Origin: Nitrospirota bacterium
Lineage (GTDB): Bacteria > Nitrospirota > Thermodesulfovibrionia > Thermodesulfovibrionales > JdFR-88
Assembly (NCBI GenBank): GCA_021813405.1
Contig: JAKAKS010000043.1
Location: 1 to 64,000, forward strand
Direction: 5' to 3'
Length of the DNA: 64,000 nt
The position numbers and the translations under genes are program-made. The notes under the pieces were generated by a model that saw only the letters and a program-made list of their open reading frames with translations, was not told where the DNA came from and ran no database searches. This document shows positions 4,671 through 22,826 of the stretch, piece after piece; position 1 is the stretch's first letter; each line of letters opens with the position of its first letter.

Positions 4671-5938
4671 GGCCACTTCATCGACCCCATCGGGCCAGTT
4701 ATCTGCGTCATGCCATGATCGGCCCCATGGCAGCTCAGGTAACAGTAAGGTTTGCCCGCCTGGTAAGAAATCATGAGCGGCCCGCCGGCGGACCCGTTTG
4801 TCACCACGGAGGTATCAAACTGGATAAGGAAGCTGTTTGTGGTGCTGCCGTGCGCCGTATGGCAGTCATGGCATGAAGCCTGCTCGTAAACAATATGAAA
4901 TTTATGGGCCTGAAAGCTCTGGTCGCCCAGTATGCTGTTTCTATCGTGGCAGCCATAGCAAAGCGCATAAGCCTCCGGTGATTCAGGGCCGTCCAGCGTA
5001 TTGTATTGCCTTACAAGTATCGGAGCGTAATCGGAACCGTGAGGGCCTATCGGGCCAGAGGGGTCGCTGTTACCGTGGCAGTCTGTGCATTTTATTGTGC
5101 TTGCCGTGGTATATCCCTTTGTAAGGCTTGGCACCTGCATGTTCCTGCCTGGAAGCTCTACCGGATGATAGGACGGGTTCATCGGGTTGAATAACAGCCT
5201 TAGATTTTCAGCCCCCGCCGGCTTGTTTGCACTGTCGGCATGGCAACGGAAGCAGATCTCGTATTCTGCCTGGGCCCTGTCGAGCACTCCAACGGCCGAA
5301 TATCCCATGGCACCCCTGGTCGGGTTGGACGGCGTATCCTCATGCGGGTTGTGGCAGTCCAGACAGCTTACGTACCTGGGGGCAAGAGGATTGGCCTGAG
5401 GCTTCTGCTGGTATCTCGCATAAAGCCCCCCGGTTGTCCAGAAAGGGTGAACGGAAGGCTTCATCCTTAGCGATTCAAGGTCAGTCCTGGCTTCTTCACG
5501 AACAGAGGTTTTAATAGTGCCATGACAGTTAAAACATGATTTCTGGCCTCCGCCGGATGAGTGGCAAGACGAGCAGCCACCCGGATTCTGAACCGGGTCC
5601 ATATGCGTGGGTATGGTGTTATCTGAATTGTCTGAATTATTTTGGGGCGCTGCCATGTTAATCGCCGGCGGCGGACTAATTACCGGTATATTATAGGCCG
5701 GCTTTGGCGTATTGGAAACAGGCATTGGACTCAAACCCGGACTTTTTATGCTGGAAACGGGAAGAAGATTCTGCACCGGCTTTGGCGCAACAGGGACGGG
5801 CGCGGGGATAAAAAACCCTCTGTCATGATTGACCACCGGCGCAGTTAGCCGGGCCGCAAAAGCTGTACCCACTATTAATAAAACCACGGCTGACACGGCC
5901 GGTATCAGCTTTCGCAAACGGAAAAAGCTCTTTCTCAT
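4664..5938 (-). CDS. Exported octaheme c-type cytochrome with one CX3CH site
   Basis: A 424-residue protein. The start follows the NHL gene's stop by 1 nt and has a G-rich ribosome site (CTGGGGGGT), so an upstream in-frame ATG was rejected. The signal peptide ends near GTAFA and is followed by a Pro-rich linker of about 80 residues. Seven canonical heme sites are visible (CSSCH, CFNCH, CLDCH, CFRCH, CTDCH, CYGCH, CHDCH), plus CYLSCH near the C terminus, which is a CX3CH site. Many sites follow the doubled-CXXCH style (CLDCHNPH, CHDCHTAH). It is probably a periplasmic or outer-membrane electron carrier feeding the neighbouring tetraheme proteins. The exact family is not recognised. Confidence 0.85.
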   Translation of the reverse strand: MRKSFFRLRKLIPAVSAVVLLIVGTAFAARLTAPVVNHDRGFFIPAPVPVAPKPVQNLLPVSSIKSPGLSPMPVSNTPKPAYNIPVISPPPAINMAAPQNNSDNSDNTIPTHMDPVQNPGGCSSCHSSGGGQKSCFNCHGTIKTSVREEARTDLESLRMKPSVHPFWTTGGLYARYQQKPQANPLAPRYVSCLDCHNPHEDTPSNPTRGAMGYSAVGVLDRAQAEYEICFRCHADSANKPAGAENLRLLFNPMNPSYHPVELPGRNMQVPSLTKGYTTASTIKCTDCHGNSDPSGPIGPHGSDYAPILVRQYNTLDGPESPEAYALCYGCHDRNSILGDQSFQAHKFHIVYEQASCHDCHTAHGSTTNSFLIQFDTSVVTNGSAGGPLMISYQAGKPYCYLSCHGADHGMTQITGPMGSMKWPW

Positions 5939-5939
5939 T

Positions 5940-6953
5940 TCATTTACCCCCCAGGAATTTAAACGCCTGAATCCTGGCATTAAGACTGTCTGAAACGAAA
6001 ATCCTGTTTTGCCCGTCCACACATATGCCCGATGGCAGGGTAAACTGGCCATAATATGAACCCTGCTGGCCGAAAAACATCATGAGCCTGCCTTTTTTGT
6101 CGAATATCTTTATCATGTCCTGGCCGGCATCGGCCACAAATATGTATCCTTGCCTGCTCACGGCTATCCCTTTTATCCTTTCAAAATCCCTGAAATCGTC
6201 GCCTATCACACCAAACGCCCCCTTGAAGGAGCCATCAGGTCCGAACATCTGCACCCTGAAATTTCCGGTATCGGCCACGTAAAGGGTCCCCCCCCGGCCT
6301 ACGGCTGCGAATGTGGGGAAATTGAATTCTCCATTGCCAGCGCCACGATGGCCTATCTTTCTGAGCAGCCTGCCCGAAAGGTCAAATACGCAGACATCGT
6401 TGGCCCATGTATCCACTACATACACCAAACCCCTGGCCTGATCCACAGCCAGCCCCGTCGGCCTCAGGAAACCGGCCTTGAAATCAAAAAGATAGGCGCC
6501 TTTTTCATCCAATGCAAAAACTTTCCTTAAATCCGGGTCCGTGACATATATTTTGCCACTTCCGCCCGCAACTGAAAGAGGATAAACCATCCTGTCTGAG
6601 CCGGCGGAGGTAAAAAAATCGGACTTCATGGTTTTTAAATCCACCATATCAACGCGGCCCGCCCCCGGGTCCGCCACGTAAAGGTTGTCCTTGCTGTCCA
6701 CAAAAACCCCTCTGGGGGAGACAAGCAGCCCGGAATCCCCTGCTTGCGGAGAAGAAATCACGGACCATTGGCCAGGCGACGGGGCGATAACAAAACCCTG
6801 ATTTACCCTTGCCATCGACCAGAGGTATTCTATCCTGGGCTTCTCAGGCGGGCCGGGCCAGATTATCCCTTGCGAAAGCGAATAATCTATCTCTGCCTTA
6901 CCAGCCGTACAGGCGCTGGCGATCAAAAGAAGCAATACGCAAAATCTCTTCAT
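5940..6953 (-). CDS. NHL-repeat beta-propeller lipoprotein
   Basis: A 337-residue protein with a lipoprotein signal (LLLLIASAC, cysteine near residue 15) and about six NHL blades. The blades are recognisable by repeated VDSKDNLYVADPG, VGRGGTLYVADTG and VDGQNRIFVSDS patterns with FGxxG turns. Lipid-anchored six-bladed propellers of this kind often accompany multiheme cytochromes. In the Geobacter osc cluster a beta-propeller protein affects nanowire morphology. Here it lies between the prolyl isomerase (110 bp upstream) and the octaheme gene (1 nt downstream). A second NHL lipoprotein ends the divergent cytochrome block. The role is inferred from context only. Confidence 0.85.
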   Translation of the reverse strand: MKRFCVLLLLIASACTAGKAEIDYSLSQGIIWPGPPEKPRIEYLWSMARVNQGFVIAPSPGQWSVISSPQAGDSGLLVSPRGVFVDSKDNLYVADPGAGRVDMVDLKTMKSDFFTSAGSDRMVYPLSVAGGSGKIYVTDPDLRKVFALDEKGAYLFDFKAGFLRPTGLAVDQARGLVYVVDTWANDVCVFDLSGRLLRKIGHRGAGNGEFNFPTFAAVGRGGTLYVADTGNFRVQMFGPDGSFKGAFGVIGDDFRDFERIKGIAVSRQGYIFVADAGQDMIKIFDKKGRLMMFFGQQGSYYGQFTLPSGICVDGQNRIFVSDSLNARIQAFKFLGGK

Positions 6954-7062
6954 TTGTCCTCTTTCAGGTCTTCATGCGGTTTTAAAAACGGTGTTTTTAC
7001 AGGTAATAGCAAAAACCTCCGTTTTATTATAACCGCTTTGCCGGCCCGGAACTGCAAAAAGT

Positions 7063-8031
7063 TCATTTTCCGTCCAGGATTTCTATTTTGGCCCCCTTCT
7101 TCAGCCTGCTCATAAGCGCATCCGTCAACTTTTTCTTTTTATCGGCAGTCAGGGAGCTTATTATCCCCTGCTTTACGGTGTTGAAGGAAAGCTGCTGCGG
7201 AGGATACACCTGCTCCACTTTAACAATGTTATAACCGTAAAGGGTCTTTATGACTCCGCTGACCTCGCCTGGCTTTAATTGAAAGACTGTTTTCTCCATA
7301 TCCGCGTCCTCAAGCATACCCCTGTGCACGATTCCCCGGTCCCCTTCCTTTACCCTGTATGGGTCCTCGGAATAGTTCCAGGCCATGGTGCCAAAACTCG
7401 CGCCTTTTTTGATCTTGTCCAGTATCTTTTCCGCAAACTGCTTCTTCTTCTGCCAGGCGCTTTCCGGGGCGGCCGGGTCCACCTTGAAGCATATCTCACT
7501 GAGCTTGCGCGCCCCCGGCCTGAAAAAGGTCTTTTTCTTTGCTTCATAGTAGGCCCTTGCTTCCTGGTCCGTGACAACAGATTTGTCACCGATCTCTTTT
7601 CTTTTCAGAGCCTTTATAAGCCAGCCTCTTTTCAGCAAGGCCCAGTATTGCTGCCTTGTAATGCCGTTCCCCTTTAGCCACATTTCAAACCCTTTTGCCC
7701 CGCCCGTCTTGGCAATGACGTATTCTTTTTCGCCTTCCAGCAATTTAGCCGGCATTTTTAGCCCGGCCCTGACCGCCTCCTGGTAACAAAGCTCGTCATC
7801 TATCATCTTTTCCATTATCTGGGGCTTATACTTTGCGATTATATCCCGGGTCAACCTGTGAAAAGTAAAAGGTATAACCTGATTAAACGCCTCGACGTAG
7901 TCAATCTGGGTTAGGTCCGTCCCGTTGACCTTTGCATAAACCTTCTGTTCAGAGGCAATTCCTGTCCCTGGCAGCACTGCCAGAAAGGCCGCCGCCATCA
8001 TTGCTGCTAAAACAAGTTTAAGTCTGCTCAC
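7063..8031 (-). CDS. PpiC/SurA-like periplasmic peptidyl-prolyl isomerase
   Basis: A 322-residue protein with a signal peptide (ending near GTGIAS), an N-terminal SurA_N-like helical region and a parvulin domain at about residues 175-285. The parvulin domain is recognisable by FGTMAWNYSEDP, GDRGIVHRG and GEVSGVIKTLYGYNIVKV. The start is a GTG with AAGGAGG 8 nt upstream. It sits 30 bp after the Gly/Asn-rich outer-membrane protein. A prolyl isomerase chaperone next to multiheme cytochromes parallels OscH of the OmcS nanowire assembly cluster. General outer-membrane protein chaperoning is the alternative role. Confidence 0.88.
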   Translation of the reverse strand: MSRLKLVLAAMMAAAFLAVLPGTGIASEQKVYAKVNGTDLTQIDYVEAFNQVIPFTFHRLTRDIIAKYKPQIMEKMIDDELCYQEAVRAGLKMPAKLLEGEKEYVIAKTGGAKGFEMWLKGNGITRQQYWALLKRGWLIKALKRKEIGDKSVVTDQEARAYYEAKKKTFFRPGARKLSEICFKVDPAAPESAWQKKKQFAEKILDKIKKGASFGTMAWNYSEDPYRVKEGDRGIVHRGMLEDADMEKTVFQLKPGEVSGVIKTLYGYNIVKVEQVYPPQQLSFNTVKQGIISSLTADKKKKLTDALMSRLKKGAKIEILDGK

Positions 8032-12921: not shown

Positions 12922-12940
12922 GTCCCTTTTGCAGCAAACA

Positions 12941-12968
12941 AAAGGGGGCCTTCGGGCCCCCTTTTTTA
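12941..12968 (+). terminator. Rho-independent terminator with UUCG loop
   Basis: AAAGGGGGCC, the loop TTCG, then GGCCCCCTTT and further T residues form a perfect 10-bp hairpin with a U-tract, 20 bp after the cytochrome stop codon. Downstream genes would be expressed by readthrough or from another promoter. Confidence 0.95.
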
Positions 12969-13030
12969 TTGCCCGGCGCTTTTTAAAGCCGGACGTTGCG
13001 CAAATAAACATTTATGCGTTATTCTTTTTC

Positions 13031-14887
13031 ATGTCTGCGGTCACAACGGCGCAAAAAACCACTCTGACACATGTGCTTCTGGTCCTTTGCGTTGCGTTCA
13101 TCGCATATAGCGGTTGCCTGGCCAACGGTTTTGCTGGTGATGATAACGCAATGATTATCAATGACCATTGGATCAGAAGCTTTTCGTTTGCCGGACAGGC
13201 ATTCTTTAGCAATGCGTGGGGTTTTGACAAGGACTTTTCAAGTTATTACAGGCCTCTCCAGCAATTGGCCTATATGTTTTTTTATGCCATGTTCGGGTTA
13301 AAGCCTTTGGGATGGCACCTGGCCAACATCGCGCTGCACGCCATAAATTCCACCCTGGTTTATTTTATTGCACTCCAGATAATTGCAATATGTTTCAGGC
13401 CCGAAACCGGCGCTGCGAAACCAGATTTCCCAAATGAAACGGAGGCTGCCGGCCAAACCCGCTCCGAGGCAAGCCTCAGGATTGGGCCTCTCGCAGCCGC
13501 GCTCATCTTTGCCGCCCATCCGATACATGTAGACGCGGTGGCCTCACCTGCCGTATTTCCAGACCTGCTGGCCGCATTTTTCTCGTTCACGGCCCTTCTG
13601 GTTTTCATAAGGCGTGCAGGACGGATGACAAACACAAAAGGATACGCCGGATATTTTGCCATTGAGTTTTCATTGCTTCTAGCCGCTTTTTTAAGCAAGG
13701 AGCCTGCCCTGACCATGCCATTTGTTTTTGTAGCCTATGATGTCTCGCTAAATAAAACCGCTGATTCCATGACAAGCCGTAAACAGGGAAAGCCAGCAGT
13801 CAGGACGCTTGTCAGGTACGCCCCCTCAATCTGCGCCATGGCAGTATATTCCGCTATGCGTTTATACGCCCTGGGAGGGTTCGGCGGAAATGATTTCCAC
13901 CCGGAAATAGGGCTGGAATCGAATATTTTGAGCGGCGTAAAATTCTTCGCGCTTTATCTTTTAAAGACATTTGTCCCGTATAGCTTGAACGCAGGATATG
14001 ATTTCCGTCCTGTTTCCTCCTTGCTTCCGCTTGGTTGGCAGCTGCCACTTTCCGCTTTTGCATGCGGGCTTTTTGTATTTTTCTTGTATGCCTCATTCAG
14101 GAGGCCCGGAACCGGTTACGGAAAAGGTTATTTTTTTTCCGGCCTTTTTTTTGCCTTGCCGCTTCTGCCTGCCCTCGACCTTCATGCACTGATACAGTTT
14201 TTTTTTGCTGAACGATACCTTTATATTCCGCTGGCCGGCTTTTCCCTTGCGCTTGGGATTTTTTTTGAGAGCGCGCTTAACGGAAATCTTGTAAAAACTG
14301 CCTTCCCGTCTAAAAAAGCCTCTGCTTTTCTGATATTCCTGATTTTAACTCTGCTGATTGCCTTCTATGGGGCTTCAACATTCGAGAGGACCCGTGTCTG
14401 GAAAAACAATTACTCTTTATGGGCCGACATAGCATCCAAATCGCCAGACAACGGCATGGCGCACTTCAATTATGGAGACGGCCTGAAGAAAGAAGGGAAG
14501 TTCGACGAGGCTATTGCCCAGTACCGGGAGTCAATCAAACTTATACCCTATTATATGGACGCTTACATCAGCCTGGGCGACATTTTAACGCTGAAAGGTG
14601 ACAATCAGGGCGCGGCGAAGGTGTATGAGGCCGCCCTTTCAATCAACTCCGGCACAAGCGATGCGCCCCTTATCCGCTACAACCTTGCCCGCGCATATCA
14701 GTCCATGGGCAAGATTGACGCGGCCATCGGTGAATACAGGATGATCCTTCAGGAACGCCCCGACCCGGTCGCCTACCGCTGTTTGGCGGACCTGCTATGC
14801 CGTTCGGGAAACCGGAATGAAGCAAAGGCTTTATACAGGAAGGCTCTTAAATTGGATCCGATGACCGCCGGCGGCACATGTAAATAG
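13031..14887 (+). CDS. GT-C/TPR membrane protein (TMTC-like), tandem copy 1
   Basis: A 618-residue polytopic membrane protein. After the first hydrophobic segment comes NGFAGDDNAM, an acidic pair in the first outer loop as expected for GT-C glycosyltransferases. RPLQQLAY and GWHLANIALHA follow. About ten membrane segments precede three or four C-terminal TPR units (FNYGDGLKKEGKFDEAI, NLARAYQSMGKIDAAI). The start at the ATG after the terminator is preferred to an in-frame ATG before it. The gene is a clear duplicate of the next one, 12 bp away. Association with an abundant Ser/Thr-rich exported cytochrome suggests O-glycosylation of that cytochrome; this is inference. Confidence 0.75.
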   Translation: MSAVTTAQKTTLTHVLLVLCVAFIAYSGCLANGFAGDDNAMIINDHWIRSFSFAGQAFFSNAWGFDKDFSSYYRPLQQLAYMFFYAMFGLKPLGWHLANIALHAINSTLVYFIALQIIAICFRPETGAAKPDFPNETEAAGQTRSEASLRIGPLAAALIFAAHPIHVDAVASPAVFPDLLAAFFSFTALLVFIRRAGRMTNTKGYAGYFAIEFSLLLAAFLSKEPALTMPFVFVAYDVSLNKTADSMTSRKQGKPAVRTLVRYAPSICAMAVYSAMRLYALGGFGGNDFHPEIGLESNILSGVKFFALYLLKTFVPYSLNAGYDFRPVSSLLPLGWQLPLSAFACGLFVFFLYASFRRPGTGYGKGYFFSGLFFALPLLPALDLHALIQFFFAERYLYIPLAGFSLALGIFFESALNGNLVKTAFPSKKASAFLIFLILTLLIAFYGASTFERTRVWKNNYSLWADIASKSPDNGMAHFNYGDGLKKEGKFDEAIAQYRESIKLIPYYMDAYISLGDILTLKGDNQGAAKVYEAALSINSGTSDAPLIRYNLARAYQSMGKIDAAIGEYRMILQERPDPVAYRCLADLLCRSGNRNEAKALYRKALKLDPMTAGGTCK

Positions 14888-14899
14888 GTTTTTATTATC

Positions 14900-16768
14900 A
14901 TGAAACCTGGCGCAAAACACGGTTCCGGCACCGTTCTGAAAACGCTCCCCCGCAAGTTCCTGGTTCCTGCCACAATTATTCTGTTTACCTTCCTGGCTTA
15001 TTTCAAATGCCTTGGTAATGGATTTGCAGGCGACGACTCCGAAATGATTGTCGAAAATCCATGGATCAAGAGTCTTGCGCTTGCCAGCCGGGCTTTTTTC
15101 AATAATGCCTGGGGTTTTGAAAAAATTGGTTCAAGTTATTACAGGCCCCTTCAACAGATGGCCTACATGGTCCTGTACTCTTTATTCGGGCTTAGGCCGC
15201 TGGGATGGCACCTGGCAAGCATTGCCCTGCATGCCCTGAACTCTGTTCTGGTTTATTTTTTAGCACGTGAAGTAACAGGCTTATGTTTTTCCAGTACCGG
15301 CCACGGCCGGACAGAAAACGGTGGAAGCGCCGCCGGGGCTGGCCCGATTGCGGCCGCCCTCATCTTTGCGGCGCATCCTGTCCATCTGGAGGCTGTGGTA
15401 TCGTCTTCTGCTTTCCCGGACCTGATGGCCGCGTTCTTTTCATTCCTGGCCCTTCTGGTTTTTATAAAACATTCCGGGCGGTCCGGATACGCGGGATATT
15501 TTGTGCTTGAGCTTTCATTGTTGCTCTCCGCCTTTTTAAGCAAAGAGCCGTCCTTTGCAATGCCGCTTGTTTTTGTTGCCTACGATGTCTCTTTGGGTAA
15601 ATTGGCGCGCCAGCGCGCTACCAGCCCGCAGGCCGGCCAGAAATCCCCAAGGCCGGCAGCTTCTGCCATTATTAAATATATCCCGGCATTATGCGCGATG
15701 GTTGCATATTCCTGGTTGCGCATAAATGCGCTTGGCAGGTTTACCGGGGTCGATTACCACCCGGAATTGGGTTCAGTTGCAGACATACTGAGCGGGGCGA
15801 AATTCTTCGCGCTTTACCTTTTTAAAACCTTTTCCCCTGTCAATTTAAATCCAGGCTATGATTACCACCCGGTATCGTCCATGCTTCCGCTTGACTGGAA
15901 ATTCCTTGTTGCAGCCCTCACTACCATGGGTTTTATTTTATTTCTGGCCATGTCATCCAGAAAAAGCAAGTCTTCAGGTATCTGGAACGGGTATTTATTT
16001 TCCGGCCTGTTTTACGCTCTCCCATTACTGCCCGCTCTTGACCTGCACGGGCTTGTGGACTTCCTGTTTGCCGAGAGATACCTCTACATGCCAGCGGCTG
16101 GCTTTTCCATTGCTTTGGGAATTACTCTGGAGAAATTGCTGCGCGGCAATATTGTAAAACCTGTCCTTCTGCCCAGGAAAGCAGTGTCTTTTGGTGTGCC
16201 TATCGTTTTAGCGCCACTGCTTGTTTTTTACGCAGCTTCGGATTTTAAAAGGGCCCCCATATGGAAAAATAACTCCACATTGTGGACCGAAATGCATCTG
16301 ACATCGCCTGATAATGGATTGGTAGAATTGAATTATGGCGATGTCCTCAGAAAAGAAGGAAGGCTGGATGAGGCTATCGCCCAATACCGTCAAGCCATAC
16401 GGAAAAAACCATACTACCTGGGCATTTACGTGAACCTGGGCGGCACTCTGATGCTTAAGGGAGACAATGAGGGTGCGGCAAAGGTATTTCAAGATGCCCT
16501 GTTCCTAAATTTGGATGCCGGCGAAGCGCCTCTCATTCATCGCGAACTTGCAAATGCCTATCTGGCGATGGGCAAGACAGAGCCTGCCATTGCAGAATTC
16601 AGGATAAGCCTTCAGCAATTGCCTGATGCGGGCAGTTACCGGGAAATGGCCGGCTTGCTTTGCAGGCTGGGCCGCAGCGTGGAAGCCGAAAAGGCATACA
16701 GGCAAGCCTTTCAACTTGATGGGGCAGGCCCTCTCCATTGCGACAGCCGGCCGTATCAGCACTCTTGA
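14900..16768 (+). CDS. GT-C/TPR membrane protein (TMTC-like), tandem copy 2
   Basis: A 622-residue protein, collinear with the preceding gene. It shares NGFAGDDSEM in the first outer loop, SSYYRPLQQMAY, GWHLASIALHALNS, the FLSKEP motif, the LFAERYLYMP segment and C-terminal TPR units (NYGDVLRKEGRLDEAI, ANAYLAMGKTEPAI). Retention of both copies with the acidic motif intact suggests each is functional, perhaps acting on different sites or acceptors. It also resembles the single-copy TPR protein at 173-1879. The sugar donor and acceptor cannot be read from sequence. Confidence 0.75.
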   Translation: MKPGAKHGSGTVLKTLPRKFLVPATIILFTFLAYFKCLGNGFAGDDSEMIVENPWIKSLALASRAFFNNAWGFEKIGSSYYRPLQQMAYMVLYSLFGLRPLGWHLASIALHALNSVLVYFLAREVTGLCFSSTGHGRTENGGSAAGAGPIAAALIFAAHPVHLEAVVSSSAFPDLMAAFFSFLALLVFIKHSGRSGYAGYFVLELSLLLSAFLSKEPSFAMPLVFVAYDVSLGKLARQRATSPQAGQKSPRPAASAIIKYIPALCAMVAYSWLRINALGRFTGVDYHPELGSVADILSGAKFFALYLFKTFSPVNLNPGYDYHPVSSMLPLDWKFLVAALTTMGFILFLAMSSRKSKSSGIWNGYLFSGLFYALPLLPALDLHGLVDFLFAERYLYMPAAGFSIALGITLEKLLRGNIVKPVLLPRKAVSFGVPIVLAPLLVFYAASDFKRAPIWKNNSTLWTEMHLTSPDNGLVELNYGDVLRKEGRLDEAIAQYRQAIRKKPYYLGIYVNLGGTLMLKGDNEGAAKVFQDALFLNLDAGEAPLIHRELANAYLAMGKTEPAIAEFRISLQQLPDAGSYREMAGLLCRLGRSVEAEKAYRQAFQLDGAGPLHCDSRPYQHS

Positions 16769-18573: not shown

Positions 18574-18912
18574 TTAAACGGCGGCCTCGCCGCTTTCGCC
18601 GGTGCGTATCCTCACCGCATCTTCCATGCTGGAGACAAATATCTTTCCGTCCCCGATGGCCCCGGTGTTAACTGCCTTCCGGATCGTCTGGATTATCTTG
18701 TCCGCGTCCTGGTCCTTTACGATCAGTTCCACCTTCTTCTTGGTAAGAAGGGATATCTTGTAGGTCTTGCCCCTCACCTGCTCCTCAAGCCCCTTCTGGC
18801 TGCCGTGCCCTTCTATATCGGAGATCATCAGGCCGGGATGGCCCACCTTCTCCAGGGCCGCGCACAGATCGCCAACTTTATTGGGGCGTATTATGGCTTC
18901 GATCTTTTTCAT
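18574..18912 (-). CDS. PII-family nitrogen/energy signal protein (GlnB/GlnK-like)
   Basis: A 112-residue PII protein starting MKKIEAIIRP, the standard length of the family. Tyr51, the residue uridylylated in enteric PII, is present (VRGKTYKIS), although the surrounding T-loop is diverged (GSQKGLEEQ). The C-terminal PII signature GAIGDGKIFVSSMEDAVRIRTGE is intact in its key positions. The start codon follows AAGGAGG by 7 nt. PII trimers sense ATP/ADP and 2-oxoglutarate and bind target transporters or enzymes. Next upstream on the same strand is a permease that itself ends in a PII domain, which suggests the two may form mixed trimers or share a regulatory signal. Confidence 0.92.
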   Translation of the reverse strand: MKKIEAIIRPNKVGDLCAALEKVGHPGLMISDIEGHGSQKGLEEQVRGKTYKISLLTKKKVELIVKDQDADKIIQTIRKAVNTGAIGDGKIFVSSMEDAVRIRTGESGEAAV

Positions 18913-18942
18913 CAATAAACCTCCTTTTAATATTCAAGCAGG

Positions 18943-18960
18943 GGCACGTTGAAGCGTGCC
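18943..18960. other. Short perfect hairpin between permease and PII genes
   Basis: GGCACG and CGTGCC flank a 6-nt loop in the 58-bp spacer between the permease-PII gene and the PII gene. There is no T-tract, so it may stabilise or process the mRNA rather than terminate it. Confidence 0.4.
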
Positions 18961-18970
18961 ACTTGCTCCA

Positions 18971-20839
18971 TTACAGGGCGTAAACGCCTTTTTCACCGGT
19001 GCGGATTCGCATGGCTTCCTTGGCGTCCAGAACAAATACCTTTCCGTCGCCTATACGTCCGCTCTGGGAAACCTCCTGAATAATATCCATCACCTTGGGC
19101 AGGTCCCAGTCATTTACCACGATGTCCACGCGCACCTTGGGGATAAAGGCTATAGTATCGGCCACATCGGCCCCGGCGCTCTGGCCTTTCTGCCTGCCAA
19201 AGCCTTCCACCCTGGTTGCAGTCATACCGATTATCAGGTCCTCGTCCTTAAGCACTTCCACAAGCACGTTAAGCTTCTCGGGCCGGATTATGGCCGATAT
19301 CATCTTCATCCCGTAGGTCTTGCTCACGGAGGTCATGATGACGTAGCCGATGCTTATCAGCGCCCAGGCGCCTGCGATGTAGAAGCAGATTTTGGCTTCA
19401 AGCTGCGAGTCCTTGTTGCCAGCCTGATAGAGGTAGATTATTGCTACCACCATTATGGCGTTTCCGATGAGCCCCAGCAGCGGGATGAGACCGTGCTTCA
19501 GCGCATTGAAATCATTGCGTTTCTTGAATGCTACGATAGTCGACACGCAGATGAGGCCGTAAAGAGCAAACGTGCCCATGTTCGAGGCAAGCGTTATACC
19601 GGTAAGGCCGTCCACGGACTGAACCCCAATGGCTGCTATGATGCTGGATACAATGACCAGCGTCCAGAGGGCAGTATGGGGCGTTGCATATTTACTGTGC
19701 ATATAGCCCAGGAATTTCGGGACCTCACGGTCCTCGCCCATGCCGAAGCTCACACGTGCAGCCGTGTTCATGCAGCTAAGAGTAGTGCCAGTCAGGGCAA
19801 TGGCTACCGTGAACGCCATCGTCATCATCAGGCCAAAGCCTACGCCGCCCAGGAGGGTATTGCCAATGTGCATGGCCAGATCGCCAATGGGCGCGGAAGA
19901 TGCTCCTGCCGCATCCATACCTGTGAGCGTCTTGCCCGCATTTACTAGCGAGTATTTATCGCTTATCATCGCGCCCGTGGCAAAATATCCGGCCAGATAG
20001 ACAAGCACCCCCTGGATAAAGAGCGAGAGCATTATGGCCTTCGGGATGTTTTTCTCAGGCTCCTTTGTCTCGGCGGCCAGCGAGGTGCAGCTTTCAAATC
20101 CGACCAGCAAAAAGATGGCTATCGTGGACTCAATGAGCACACCGTTCAGCGTGTGGGGCTTCACGACATCCCATGCGCCGCTAAAGGCCCAGTGGGCTGC
20201 GTGCTCCGGGTTTGCGATCCTGTACCAAATGGCTAGTCCGGTGAAAATGATCAGCATCGCAAGTTGAGTGATATTGATCCAAAGGGCCGTCATGGTAGAG
20301 CCGGTTATGCCGCGATAGGCAATATAGCCCGTTACGAAAGCAAAGACAGTGCCTATTATTACCAGTTCCGGAACCGACAGTGTCTGCCCGGTAAACTGCT
20401 GGTAAATATAGCCGATCATTGTCGCCATCATCGCCACGCAAACGCCTGGATAAACCCAGTAATACAGGTGTGCGGCCCACCCGGTAGCTATTTTGACCAA
20501 CCGGGCCATCGAAACCGGGCCGGCCTTACGCGAACCGCTTTTATTGGCCAGAAATGCCTGTTCTGCGAAATAAACCGCGCCCGCAAAACCCGCCTTAGGA
20601 TAAATCTTTGCCAATTCCTTGTAAGAGAGCGCCGTCAGAAAGGCGATGACAAGCGCCGCAACCAGGCCCGGCCATATGTCGGACGCAACACTCGCCCCGC
20701 TTGGTGCGGCGGCCGAGGCCTGCAACTGATAGGTTAGCCACAGGAGCGCACCCGGCGCTATCAGCGCCATCGCGTTCATCGTGGCGCCCAGCAGGCCAAG
20801 CGACTGCTTTACTACAGGTGAATTCGTTTGTTCAGACAT
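18971..20839 (-). CDS. APC-family amino acid/polyamine permease fused to a C-terminal PII domain
   Basis: A 622-residue protein. Residues about 10-500 form an APC-type transporter with roughly twelve membrane segments (ATMNAMALIAPGALLW, VGFESCTSLAAE, GEDREVPKFLGYMH). Residues about 511-622 are a complete PII domain (MKMISAIIRPEKLNVLVEVL ... SGRIGDGKVFVLDAKEAM). The PII T-loop keeps GRQKGQ but lacks the uridylylated tyrosine, so nucleotide and 2-oxoglutarate binding rather than uridylylation would govern it. The start ATG follows AAGGAGG by 8 nt. PII normally regulates transporters in trans; here the sensor is covalently attached. The substrate is unknown, possibly an amino acid. Confidence 0.9.
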   Translation of the reverse strand: MSEQTNSPVVKQSLGLLGATMNAMALIAPGALLWLTYQLQASAAAPSGASVASDIWPGLVAALVIAFLTALSYKELAKIYPKAGFAGAVYFAEQAFLANKSGSRKAGPVSMARLVKIATGWAAHLYYWVYPGVCVAMMATMIGYIYQQFTGQTLSVPELVIIGTVFAFVTGYIAYRGITGSTMTALWINITQLAMLIIFTGLAIWYRIANPEHAAHWAFSGAWDVVKPHTLNGVLIESTIAIFLLVGFESCTSLAAETKEPEKNIPKAIMLSLFIQGVLVYLAGYFATGAMISDKYSLVNAGKTLTGMDAAGASSAPIGDLAMHIGNTLLGGVGFGLMMTMAFTVAIALTGTTLSCMNTAARVSFGMGEDREVPKFLGYMHSKYATPHTALWTLVIVSSIIAAIGVQSVDGLTGITLASNMGTFALYGLICVSTIVAFKKRNDFNALKHGLIPLLGLIGNAIMVVAIIYLYQAGNKDSQLEAKICFYIAGAWALISIGYVIMTSVSKTYGMKMISAIIRPEKLNVLVEVLKDEDLIIGMTATRVEGFGRQKGQSAGADVADTIAFIPKVRVDIVVNDWDLPKVMDIIQEVSQSGRIGDGKVFVLDAKEAMRIRTGEKGVYAL

Positions 20840-20879: not shown

Positions 20880-21200
20880 TTATCTGCCACCCAGCTGAAT
20901 TACCAGGCCTCCTGCAATTATCAAGACAAGCCCAAGCCAGGTGGGGACGGCAATGCTCTCGCCGAACAACAAGCGTCCAGCCATAACGCTCACAATGGCA
21001 AAGACCCCGACATACACGCCCAGCAGCTTTGAAAAATCCCATTTCACCATGTTGACCGTAAGCCCGTAAAAGCCAAGCACGCCAAAGCCTATTACGATCA
21101 AAGTGAGGCCGCCGGACCTTAACCCACGCCGAATCAAGGCGTCCCCGCCTACCTCCAGCACCGCCGCAAGGACAAAAATAAACCAGGCAGCTAACGGCAT
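20880..21200 (-). CDS. Small four-helix DMT/EamA-like membrane protein
   Basis: A 106-residue protein with four membrane segments and a glutamate in the first (LAAVLEVGGDALIRRG), as in small multidrug resistance and single-domain EamA proteins. It lies 40 bp upstream of the permease-PII gene on the same strand and downstream of a porin, so it is probably part of one transport operon. The substrate is not known. It lacks a partner copy here, so it would act as a homo-oligomer if functional. Confidence 0.7.
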   Translation of the reverse strand: MPLAAWFIFVLAAVLEVGGDALIRRGLRSGGLTLIVIGFGVLGFYGLTVNMVKWDFSKLLGVYVGVFAIVSVMAGRLLFGESIAVPTWLGLVLIIAGGLVIQLGGR

Positions 21201-21255: not shown

Positions 21256-22353
21256 TTACCACGTGTACATCACGCCAAGGGCCAGGGTGTCCTGGGACTT
21301 CTTTGTGTTGCTGTTAAAGCTGGCCTGGTTGGACCAGTCGTGCCGGTACTCCGGCCTCAGCAGAAGGTTATTAGCCAGCGTGTACTGCCCGGTAATCGTT
21401 ACCTCCTTCAGGTGCTGGCCGGCAAAGCCGGTCCTTGCGCCCTGCGGGTCCATGAACTCCTCGCCTCTTATCGTGGCGCTTACCTTATCATTGAAGACGT
21501 AATTTACATAACCAGCTATCCCATACCACTTGTCATCTTCGCCCAGCCCGGCAAGATTTTTGTCCGTCGCGTAATCAGTGTTCACCGCAACGGTCAGGTT
21601 CTTTACAGGGCTTACGGAGCCAACCCAGTCGAACAGGAACCTGTTGTCATGGTTATCCTGCGCCTGCGTTGGGCCGTAAAGGAAATTGAACACCAGGCTC
21701 GATGCCGAAGAAGGCGTTACGGTAGTGCTCAAACCATAGGTCTGGCTGTGGTTGTTGCCGCTTGCCACGTCCCAGCCGTTTAAGATATATGCATTGGCCG
21801 AGATTTTTGGGCTGAAAGTGTAGCCCGCCATGAACCCGGTATGGGTAAACGGTATCGCGTAATTAAAGAGAAATGAGCGGGAATAGTTATAGTCGCCGCT
21901 GGCCTCTATTACCTCCTCGCCGGTAAAGGTAACAAACTTCCCAAGCTGAAGCGTAAGGCCGCTGCCAACGGGCACTGTATAATTTACGTATGCCTCAGTA
22001 AGGTCGAACGGCTGATCCGGATTGCTTGCGCCAAGCCCAACCGAATGGATATCCTTGGCAGTTTCGCCAGCCGCAAGCTTTAATTTGTAACCAACCTGCC
22101 CCACTGCCGGCGCTTTCAGGAACTGAAGCTCGGCCAGGTCCAGGCTGAACTGGTTGCCGTGGTTGTCGAAAACCCTCCAGTCATTTGTATCATTGCCCTG
22201 CAAATTGCCGGTAAAACCGCCTTGCAGATATATGCTCATGCCTATGGCGTTCTTGATGTCACCGGCGGAAAGCGATGAATCAGCCAGTGAAACACCAGTA
22301 TGGGTAAATACAGCCAGCACCAACAAAGTCAAAACCGCCAAAACCTTCTTCAT
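21256..22353 (-). CDS. Outer-membrane porin of the Bbp2 (beta-barrel porin-2) type
   Basis: A 365-residue protein with a signal peptide (ending near VSLA), alternating beta-strand sequence and a C terminus ending YTW. Motifs such as DLTEAYVNYTVPVGSGLTLQ and the closing LRPEYRHDWSNQASF fit the Bbp2/OmpL-like porin family (PF07642). It probably provides outer-membrane entry for the substrate of the downstream permease-PII fusion. Position in one minus-strand run with a Fis-like protein, DMT protein, permease and PII suggests a nitrogen-responsive operon. Confidence 0.82.
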   Translation of the reverse strand: MKKVLAVLTLLVLAVFTHTGVSLADSSLSAGDIKNAIGMSIYLQGGFTGNLQGNDTNDWRVFDNHGNQFSLDLAELQFLKAPAVGQVGYKLKLAAGETAKDIHSVGLGASNPDQPFDLTEAYVNYTVPVGSGLTLQLGKFVTFTGEEVIEASGDYNYSRSFLFNYAIPFTHTGFMAGYTFSPKISANAYILNGWDVASGNNHSQTYGLSTTVTPSSASSLVFNFLYGPTQAQDNHDNRFLFDWVGSVSPVKNLTVAVNTDYATDKNLAGLGEDDKWYGIAGYVNYVFNDKVSATIRGEEFMDPQGARTGFAGQHLKEVTITGQYTLANNLLLRPEYRHDWSNQASFNSNTKKSQDTLALGVMYTW

Positions 22354-22446: not shown

Positions 22447-22641
22447 TCACATTTCCATAATCGCCTCTTTCTTAAGCCGGATGCCGTACTTCCTCAGCCT
22501 GTAATTGAACATCCGCTCAGACAGCCCAAGGGCCCTGGCCGCCCTGGATTTAACCCAGCCAGACTCCCTGAGGGCGTTCATTATCTCCTTCCTCTCCAGT
22601 TCCTCAACCTTTTCTTTAAGCATCATAGCGGGTTCCTCCAT
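22447..22641 (-). CDS. Small Fis-type HTH protein resembling the NifA C-terminal domain
   Basis: A 64-residue protein consisting almost only of a Fis/HTH_8 domain. ALRESGWVKSRAARALGLS then ERMFNYRLRKYGI is very like the DNA-binding end of NifA and other sigma-54 activators. The AAA+ and sensor domains are absent, so it cannot activate sigma-54 by itself. It may act as an architectural or competing DNA binder. AAGGGA precedes the ATG chosen; a start 10 codons upstream is possible. It leads the nitrogen-linked transport run. Confidence 0.75.
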   Translation of the reverse strand: MEEPAMMLKEKVEELERKEIMNALRESGWVKSRAARALGLSERMFNYRLRKYGIRLKKEAIMEM

Positions 22642-22826
22642 GTTATCCCTTATATGAAAAAACCGTGCCAACCCGGAACTGGCCGATTTATAAAGGAAGG
22701 GATGCCGCTAAGTATCAGCAAAAATGTTGGCGCCGCCAATTTGGATTTACAATTTCGTCGCATCCAACATAGATTGCCAGCGGGCCTTAAAAAAAGCGTT
22801 TATACCGGAGCCCGGAAAAGATTCTT

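Follow-up and report, generated by a model that had tools for sequence, protein, structure and literature searches.

AmtB, Nrt, Urt, and SbtA are known targets of PII signal proteins, in each case in trans. In a stretch of 64,000 nucleotides from a Nitrospirota bacterium (the whole of which is referred to as the window), one open reading frame joins an APC-type permease to a PII domain, and the adjoining gene encodes a second, free-standing PII. This arrangement raises the question of what a covalently attached PII could do for a permease and which part of the task would fall to the free copy.

Organization of the locus

The genes concerned form an operon on the minus strand, in the order (5' to 3') HTH leader, BBP2 porin, SMR/UPF0060-like gene, APC-PII fusion, and free PII; the last four are separated by gaps of 55, 40, and 58 bp. 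The coordinates assigned to the fusion and the adjoining free PII in the first-pass annotation proved exact. The features are:

22655..22670, minus strand: sigma-54-type -24/-12-like site TGGCACGGTTTTTTCA (aligned upstream regions)
22447..22626, minus strand: small Fis-type HTH leader protein (Pfam HTH_8, 3e-13; aligned upstream sequences)
21256..22353, minus strand: BBP2 beta-barrel porin, first large gene of the operon (Pfam BBP2, 1.7e-70; gene cluster c3)
20880..21200, minus strand: SMR/UPF0060-like protein with four TM helices, 40 bp upstream of the fusion (Multi_Drug_Res, 4e-6; UPF0060, 6.7e-6)
18971..20839, minus strand: APC permease-PII fusion, a single ORF with an ATG start, 622 aa (Pfam; orthologues)
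19340..20839, minus strand: permease part of the fusion, aa 1-500, 12 TM helices, LeuT/APC fold (AlphaFold2 and Foldseek)
19277..19378, minus strand: TM12-to-PII junction, IAGAW...IIRPE, 34 residues, aa 488-521 (model; comparison of 23 proteins)
18974..19309, minus strand: fused PII domain, aa 511-622 (Pfam; GlnB alignment; residue counts)
18574..18912, minus strand: free-standing PII, 112 aa (Pfam P-II, 3.6e-27; alignment)

Translation of the leader starts at an ATG at 22626, with a GGAGG motif at 22639-22635; the mechanically called ORF extends to 22671. This Fis/NtrC-type HTH protein (22447-22671, minus strand, in the longer form) heads the operon, is kept together with the porin in relatives, and may be an autogenous regulator of the operon. 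Cluster c3 porins were found close to the fusion or its cousins in 16 of the loci compared, and the cluster of the SMR-like gene (c7) is also represented in L028, L033, L035, and L036. Elsewhere in the window, on the plus strand (12929-16768), two tandem homologous membrane-plus-TPR proteins of 652 and 622 aa are encoded.

Distribution of the fusion

Of the 12 genomes that represent the host's family, eight, counting the host itself, encode a full-length fused orthologue (73-76% identity). In the GTDB collection, fused orthologues of about 60-76% identity are found on contigs labelled as about eight phyla, the labels (bin titles, which may be wrong) being Nitrospirae, Omnitrophota, Elusimicrobia, Spirochaetaceae, a planctomycete, Firestonebacteria, FCPU426, Syntrophaceae, and Deltaproteobacteria. 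Within the phyla sampled the fusion is uncommon: among 285 genomes from the phylum to which an Omnitrophota carrier belongs, 13 have it (two of these copies being truncated at contig ends), and in the phylum of the Syntrophaceae carrier it was seen in 2/395 genomes. A spread so patchy at such identity suggests that the APC-PII cassette moved by horizontal transfer. The design had been described as unusual, and so it is, but it is not unique to this genome, as the pair recurs across labelled phyla.

That an annotation or assembly artefact joined two genes has virtually no probability left and was rejected: one relative, L027, looks chimeric at a contig end, but the same fusion, joined at an identical point, is present on more than 25 independent contigs, and the fused orthologues of 60-76% identity in independent assemblies exclude a sequencing or assembly accident.

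The permease also occurs in PII-less form. A close relative (L058/L089, 541 aa) is about 58% identical, and more distant cousins of about 630-650 aa carry an insert and often lie beside porin, Amt, and GlnK genes. The insert comprises about 90 residues between TM5 and TM6, with repeats like KDKDGNPV (L034, ORF 5542-7464, minus strand, aa about 207-303, and relatives). The genes adjoining PII-less cousin permeases include one for a protein of about 600 aa that combines a PP2C phosphatase with a Ser/Thr kinase (L034 3623-5416, L035 2932-4734); porin and Amt genes are nearby at such loci, as is a Na+/H+ antiporter gene in L034 and L036.

The permease half and its junction with PII

Residues 31-495 of the 622-aa fusion match the Pfam AA_permease profile (PF00324, 6e-20). 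The AlphaFold2 monomer model used (57-row alignment, mean pLDDT 77, pTM 0.74; an earlier model from 22 fused sequences was poor, with a pLDDT of 60) predicts 12 TM helices, of which TM1 and TM6 are broken as in the APC fold. Foldseek with this model retrieved GkApcT (5oqt/6f34) with a TMt of 0.79 and AdiC with 0.74, LAT1 and ApcT being also among the nearest structures. Profile match and predicted fold with its two broken helices place this half in the APC family; the sequence alignment of the permease half with GkApcT was too weak for naming a substrate.

The segment from IAGxW to RPE comprises 34 residues with zero indels in 23/23 fused proteins compared, and this constant length argues for a rigid connection between TM12 and PII. 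In the model, the TM12 helix (476-508) continues straight into beta-1 of PII (511). The 12 TM helices and the distribution of positive residues imply that the fused PII is cytoplasmic. The N-terminus of Synechococcus elongatus PII is buried, and a direct N-terminal fusion to this protein led to misfolding (PMC5431102), so that a natural N-terminal PII fusion is notable. R9 marks the end of beta-1 and is located at the base of the T-loop; the opposite end of this strand should therefore be on the far side, and the T-loops of the fused PII would be expected to point away from the membrane, unlike those of GlnK on AmtB.

The fused PII domain

The Pfam P-II profile (PF00543) is matched over its full length (1-102) by residues 511-616 of the fusion, with 3.5e-21. 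Side-chain contacts to the ligands of GlnK are made by R9, T29, Q39, K58, K90, R101, and R103 (PMC8395244). In the alignment, the contact residues of GlnK for ATP/ADP and 2-oxoglutarate are kept in 28-29 of 29 fused domains, a conservation that supports the first reading of the domain as a PII sensor covalently linked to the permease. The window's own fused domain keeps the ligand-site residues; its T-loop tip is eroded (QSAGADVADTIAFI) and has neither Tyr51 nor R47. Across the set, Tyr51 is found in 0/29 fused domains, R47 is not conserved, and the T-loop tip is variable, with 10-23 residues. Alignment to E. coli GlnB bears out the first reading of the two copies, i.e. the fused one is devoid of a Tyr at position 51 and the free one has Tyr51. 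Judged by its sequence, the fused domain is a PII domain, yet it is not filed as GlnB/GlnK type, since its T-loop has neither Tyr51, the site of uridylylation, nor a conserved R47, the residue that plugs AmtB.

For the closest pairs, dN/dS is about 0.07-0.09 in the fused PII vs. 0.12-0.15 in the permease, which points to stronger purifying selection on the PII part, but the T-loop tip is relaxed. With R47 and the tip lost, the fused PII is unlikely to plug its own permease in the style of GlnK on AmtB.

The free PII partner

The window's free PII keeps Tyr51, R47-G48-K49, Q39, K58, K90, and R101/R103, with the changes F36 to H and R38 to S. Its relatives at other fusion loci are alike: among 21 partners, Tyr51, K58, and K90 are invariant (21/21 each), Q39 is kept in 20 and R47-G48-K49 in 18, His stands at F36 in all, and R38 is mostly lost. 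The partner T-loop has a fixed length, always 15 residues from G41 to position 57. Canonical T-loop, Tyr51, and ligand residues identify the free partner as a PII protein; GlnK proper has amtB adjoining the PII gene, whereas here the neighbour is the permease fusion. The Amt genes of the host lie on a different contig, beside another PII. The number of free PIIs near the fusion varies from one to two, and extra or divergent PIIs, one with a largely shortened T-loop, were observed downstream of the fusion at L080, at L050 (6318-6707), and at L046 (6038-6815).

Tyr51 of the free PII had been regarded as modifiable. The residue is indeed present, but its modification is doubtful because neither of two GlnD models (TIGR01693, PF08335) has a match in the host genome (100% complete), and a uridylylation switch on Tyr51 is not supported. 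By profile search, GlnD is absent from 19/23 related or carrier genomes. As a separate observation, two giant open frames of an Omnitrophota MAG (G325:C43, G325:C58), 7845 and 7071 residues long, contain PF08335 (GlnD-type) matches.

Pairing and co-variation of fused and free PII

A canonical free PII follows downstream on the same strand in 26 of the 28 fused genes with readable downstream sequence, a set that leaves out L027. Twenty-one pair gaps were tallied, 18 of -4 to 154 bp and three of 1.1-1.7 kb; the remaining five pairs are those of L077, L078, L079, L084, and L088. The fusion at L055 has no free PII adjacent, which was counted against the model favoured below, and the PII downstream of the L080 fusion is divergent, with a shortened T-loop.

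In the PII tree, which stems from a short alignment and is trusted in its major forks only, the fused domains form one clade (100/100), and the partners are placed elsewhere, most of them in one group. The identity between fused and partner PII is about 33-44%. The separate clades led us to reject a recent duplication of the free PII as the origin of the fused one.

When the permease distance is controlled, distances of fused PII and partner correlate with a partial r of 0.77 (20 loci), 0.49 without the L052 group, and 0.66 and 0.43 in dereplicated sets (permutation p 0.0002-0.0024), a signal that rests on 11-20 loci. For the Amt-linked PIIs of these genomes, distances did not correlate in this way with those of the fused PII. 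Co-variation beyond that of the permease fits mixed trimers or docking and proves neither, and an exchange of the operon's 3' half as one unit could give rise to it as well. At L027 (7398-9271, G001:C28), the final stretch of about 380 nt, which encodes the PII part, matches the window at about 99% identity, the remainder at about 68%. This locus may be an example of such an exchange; a chimeric contig is equally possible because the contig ends there.

Regulation and nitrogen context

Sigma-54-type -24/-12 sites (threshold at least 10 of 12; 0.026 expected per 430-nt region) were found in 12/21 loci, at most about 310 bp ahead of the fusion or the porin; these loci are partly related, so that the number of independent lineages is lower. 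A sigma-54-like site occupies the same position in 7/7 aligned upstream regions. The sites of the relatives are strong; compared with them, the one in the window has a perfect -24 half and an altered, degenerate -12 half. The host genome encodes sigma-54. In other genomes, the genes nearby encode, among others, Amt-GlnK pairs, glutamine synthetase, a glutamine-dependent NAD synthetase (NadE), a sigma-54 activator, and carbamoyl-phosphate synthase.

The host also has a nitrogenase cluster (L098, G000:C17:108000-124000) with nifH, nifD, nifK, and a NifE-NifN fusion of 868 aa. Downstream of these, and not between nifH and nifD, lie two short genes for PII proteins of 105 and 138 aa, which are probably NifI1/NifI2.

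How the two PII copies may act

We consider it rather probable, reasoning from sequence data, that the fusion is a permease induced under nitrogen limitation, to which a ligand-binding PII module is rigidly attached, and that this module cooperates with a free PII dedicated to it. The complete ligand site, the indel-free TM12 junction, the lost T-loop tip, and the free PII partner form the basis of this model. The purifying selection on the PII part, the sigma-54-like sites, the nitrogen-related neighbours, and the co-variation with the partner also speak for it. The operon would be an uptake unit induced by nitrogen limitation and composed of porin, SMR-like protein, permease, and PII. Nucleotide and 2-oxoglutarate occupancy of the fused module would alter packing or oligomeric state of the permease via TM12, whereby transport would track the carbon/nitrogen/energy status. 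The free PII would supply the missing T-loop function, either as a co-subunit of a mixed trimer or as a homotrimer docking on the permease. Against this model count the degenerate -12 element of the window's own site and the architecture of the permease family: to our knowledge, APC transporters of known structure are monomers or dimers. PII regulation, according to a 2023 review, so far seems restricted to trimeric transporters, which was likewise counted against it (PMC10710835).

A mixed trimer of fused modules and free PII, e.g. one fused and two free subunits, would reconcile a trimeric sensor with an APC permease, as the permease need not trimerise and the free subunits would lend their T-loops. 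This is a serious possibility, if one with less than even prospects. Almost every fusion has an adjacent partner, and distances of fused and partner PII co-vary beyond the permease (partial r 0.43-0.77). PII paralogues, even across organisms, form heterotrimers (PMC11121479), and PII heterotrimers are also credited to van Heeswijk 2000 in a later paper (PMC5448240). Identity of only about 33-44% and membership in different clades speak against mixed trimers, and block exchange could generate the co-variation. Slightly more tentative is the wider proposal of a two-part sensor, in which a permease-bound ligand site and a free T-loop donor would form mixed trimers, provide GlnD-independent control by 2-oxoglutarate/ATP/ADP, and belong to a cassette that spread between phyla.

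A little less likely than the mixed trimer is a docking version of the favoured model, in which the free PII, as a classical GlnK-like homotrimer, binds in trans to the permease, whose fused PII would be a distinct domain for allostery or docking. The canonical partner T-loop (R47 in 18/21, Tyr51 in 21/21) and the precedents of GlnK-AmtB and SbtB-SbtA (PMC10710835) are in line with it, but a ligand-competent PII welded on through a junction of constant length would be left unexplained. The fused PII might instead recruit the free PII or other PII targets to the membrane, as a tether or transceptor that does not gate transport. The degenerate T-loop tip of the fused copy makes pore plugging of the known style unlikely, and AmtB sequesters GlnK at the membrane in a known system; we nevertheless hold such a role to be unlikely, as the short junction of constant length suggests mechanical coupling over a flexible tether. 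Still less credit is given to a structural or relic fusion, whose PII would only oligomerise or stabilise the permease and no longer sense: the eroded T-loop tip and the close PII-less relative of 541 aa can be cited for it, but the ligand-site residues are conserved and dN/dS of the PII part is low.

Relation to known systems and significance

The favoured model, a rigidly attached PII module working with a dedicated free PII, shares features with several known systems. As in GlnK-AmtB, a PII with an ATP/2-oxoglutarate site is paired with a nitrogen-related transporter, and the partner keeps the T-loop with R47 and Tyr51; here, in contrast, the transporter is an APC permease and one PII is covalent, with a T-loop tip devoid of R47 and Tyr51. 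In SbtB-SbtA, a PII-superfamily protein controls a non-Amt secondary transporter (for bicarbonate), but SbtB is separate and SbtA trimeric, whereas a classical-type PII is fused to an APC fold here. KimA, a K+ transporter of the APC superfamily that binds c-di-AMP, has a similar fold (Foldseek 8b70/8b71) and responds to a cytosolic nucleotide signal, but has no PII domain and uses another signal. LacS is a secondary transporter with a fused IIA-Glc-like regulatory domain of a global nutrient system (PMC10710835); it is governed by HPr-dependent phosphorylation, not by metabolite binding. The permease half resembles GkApcT/CAT-type transporters (TIGR00909) in its AA_permease match, a TIGR00909 match of 6e-26, and a TM-score of 0.79; it differs in scoring below the NCBIfam cut-off (91 of 557 bits) and in an altered TM1 motif (IAPGA), and known members of that group are devoid of PII.

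No paper on an APC-PII fusion was found in a search to which most subscription journals were closed, and domain-architecture databases may list it. In the literature searched, transporter control by PII is described in trans only, and it is said to appear confined to trimeric transporters (PMC10710835). An APC permease with a covalently bound, ligand-competent PII would depart from both points and make them testable in one protein. It may also offer a design for metabolite-controlled permeases. Occurrence of the same pair across many labelled phyla suggests an as yet unstudied link between nutrient uptake and nitrogen status, in which the functions of PII would be naturally separated, the fused copy sensing ligands and the free one providing the T-loop output.
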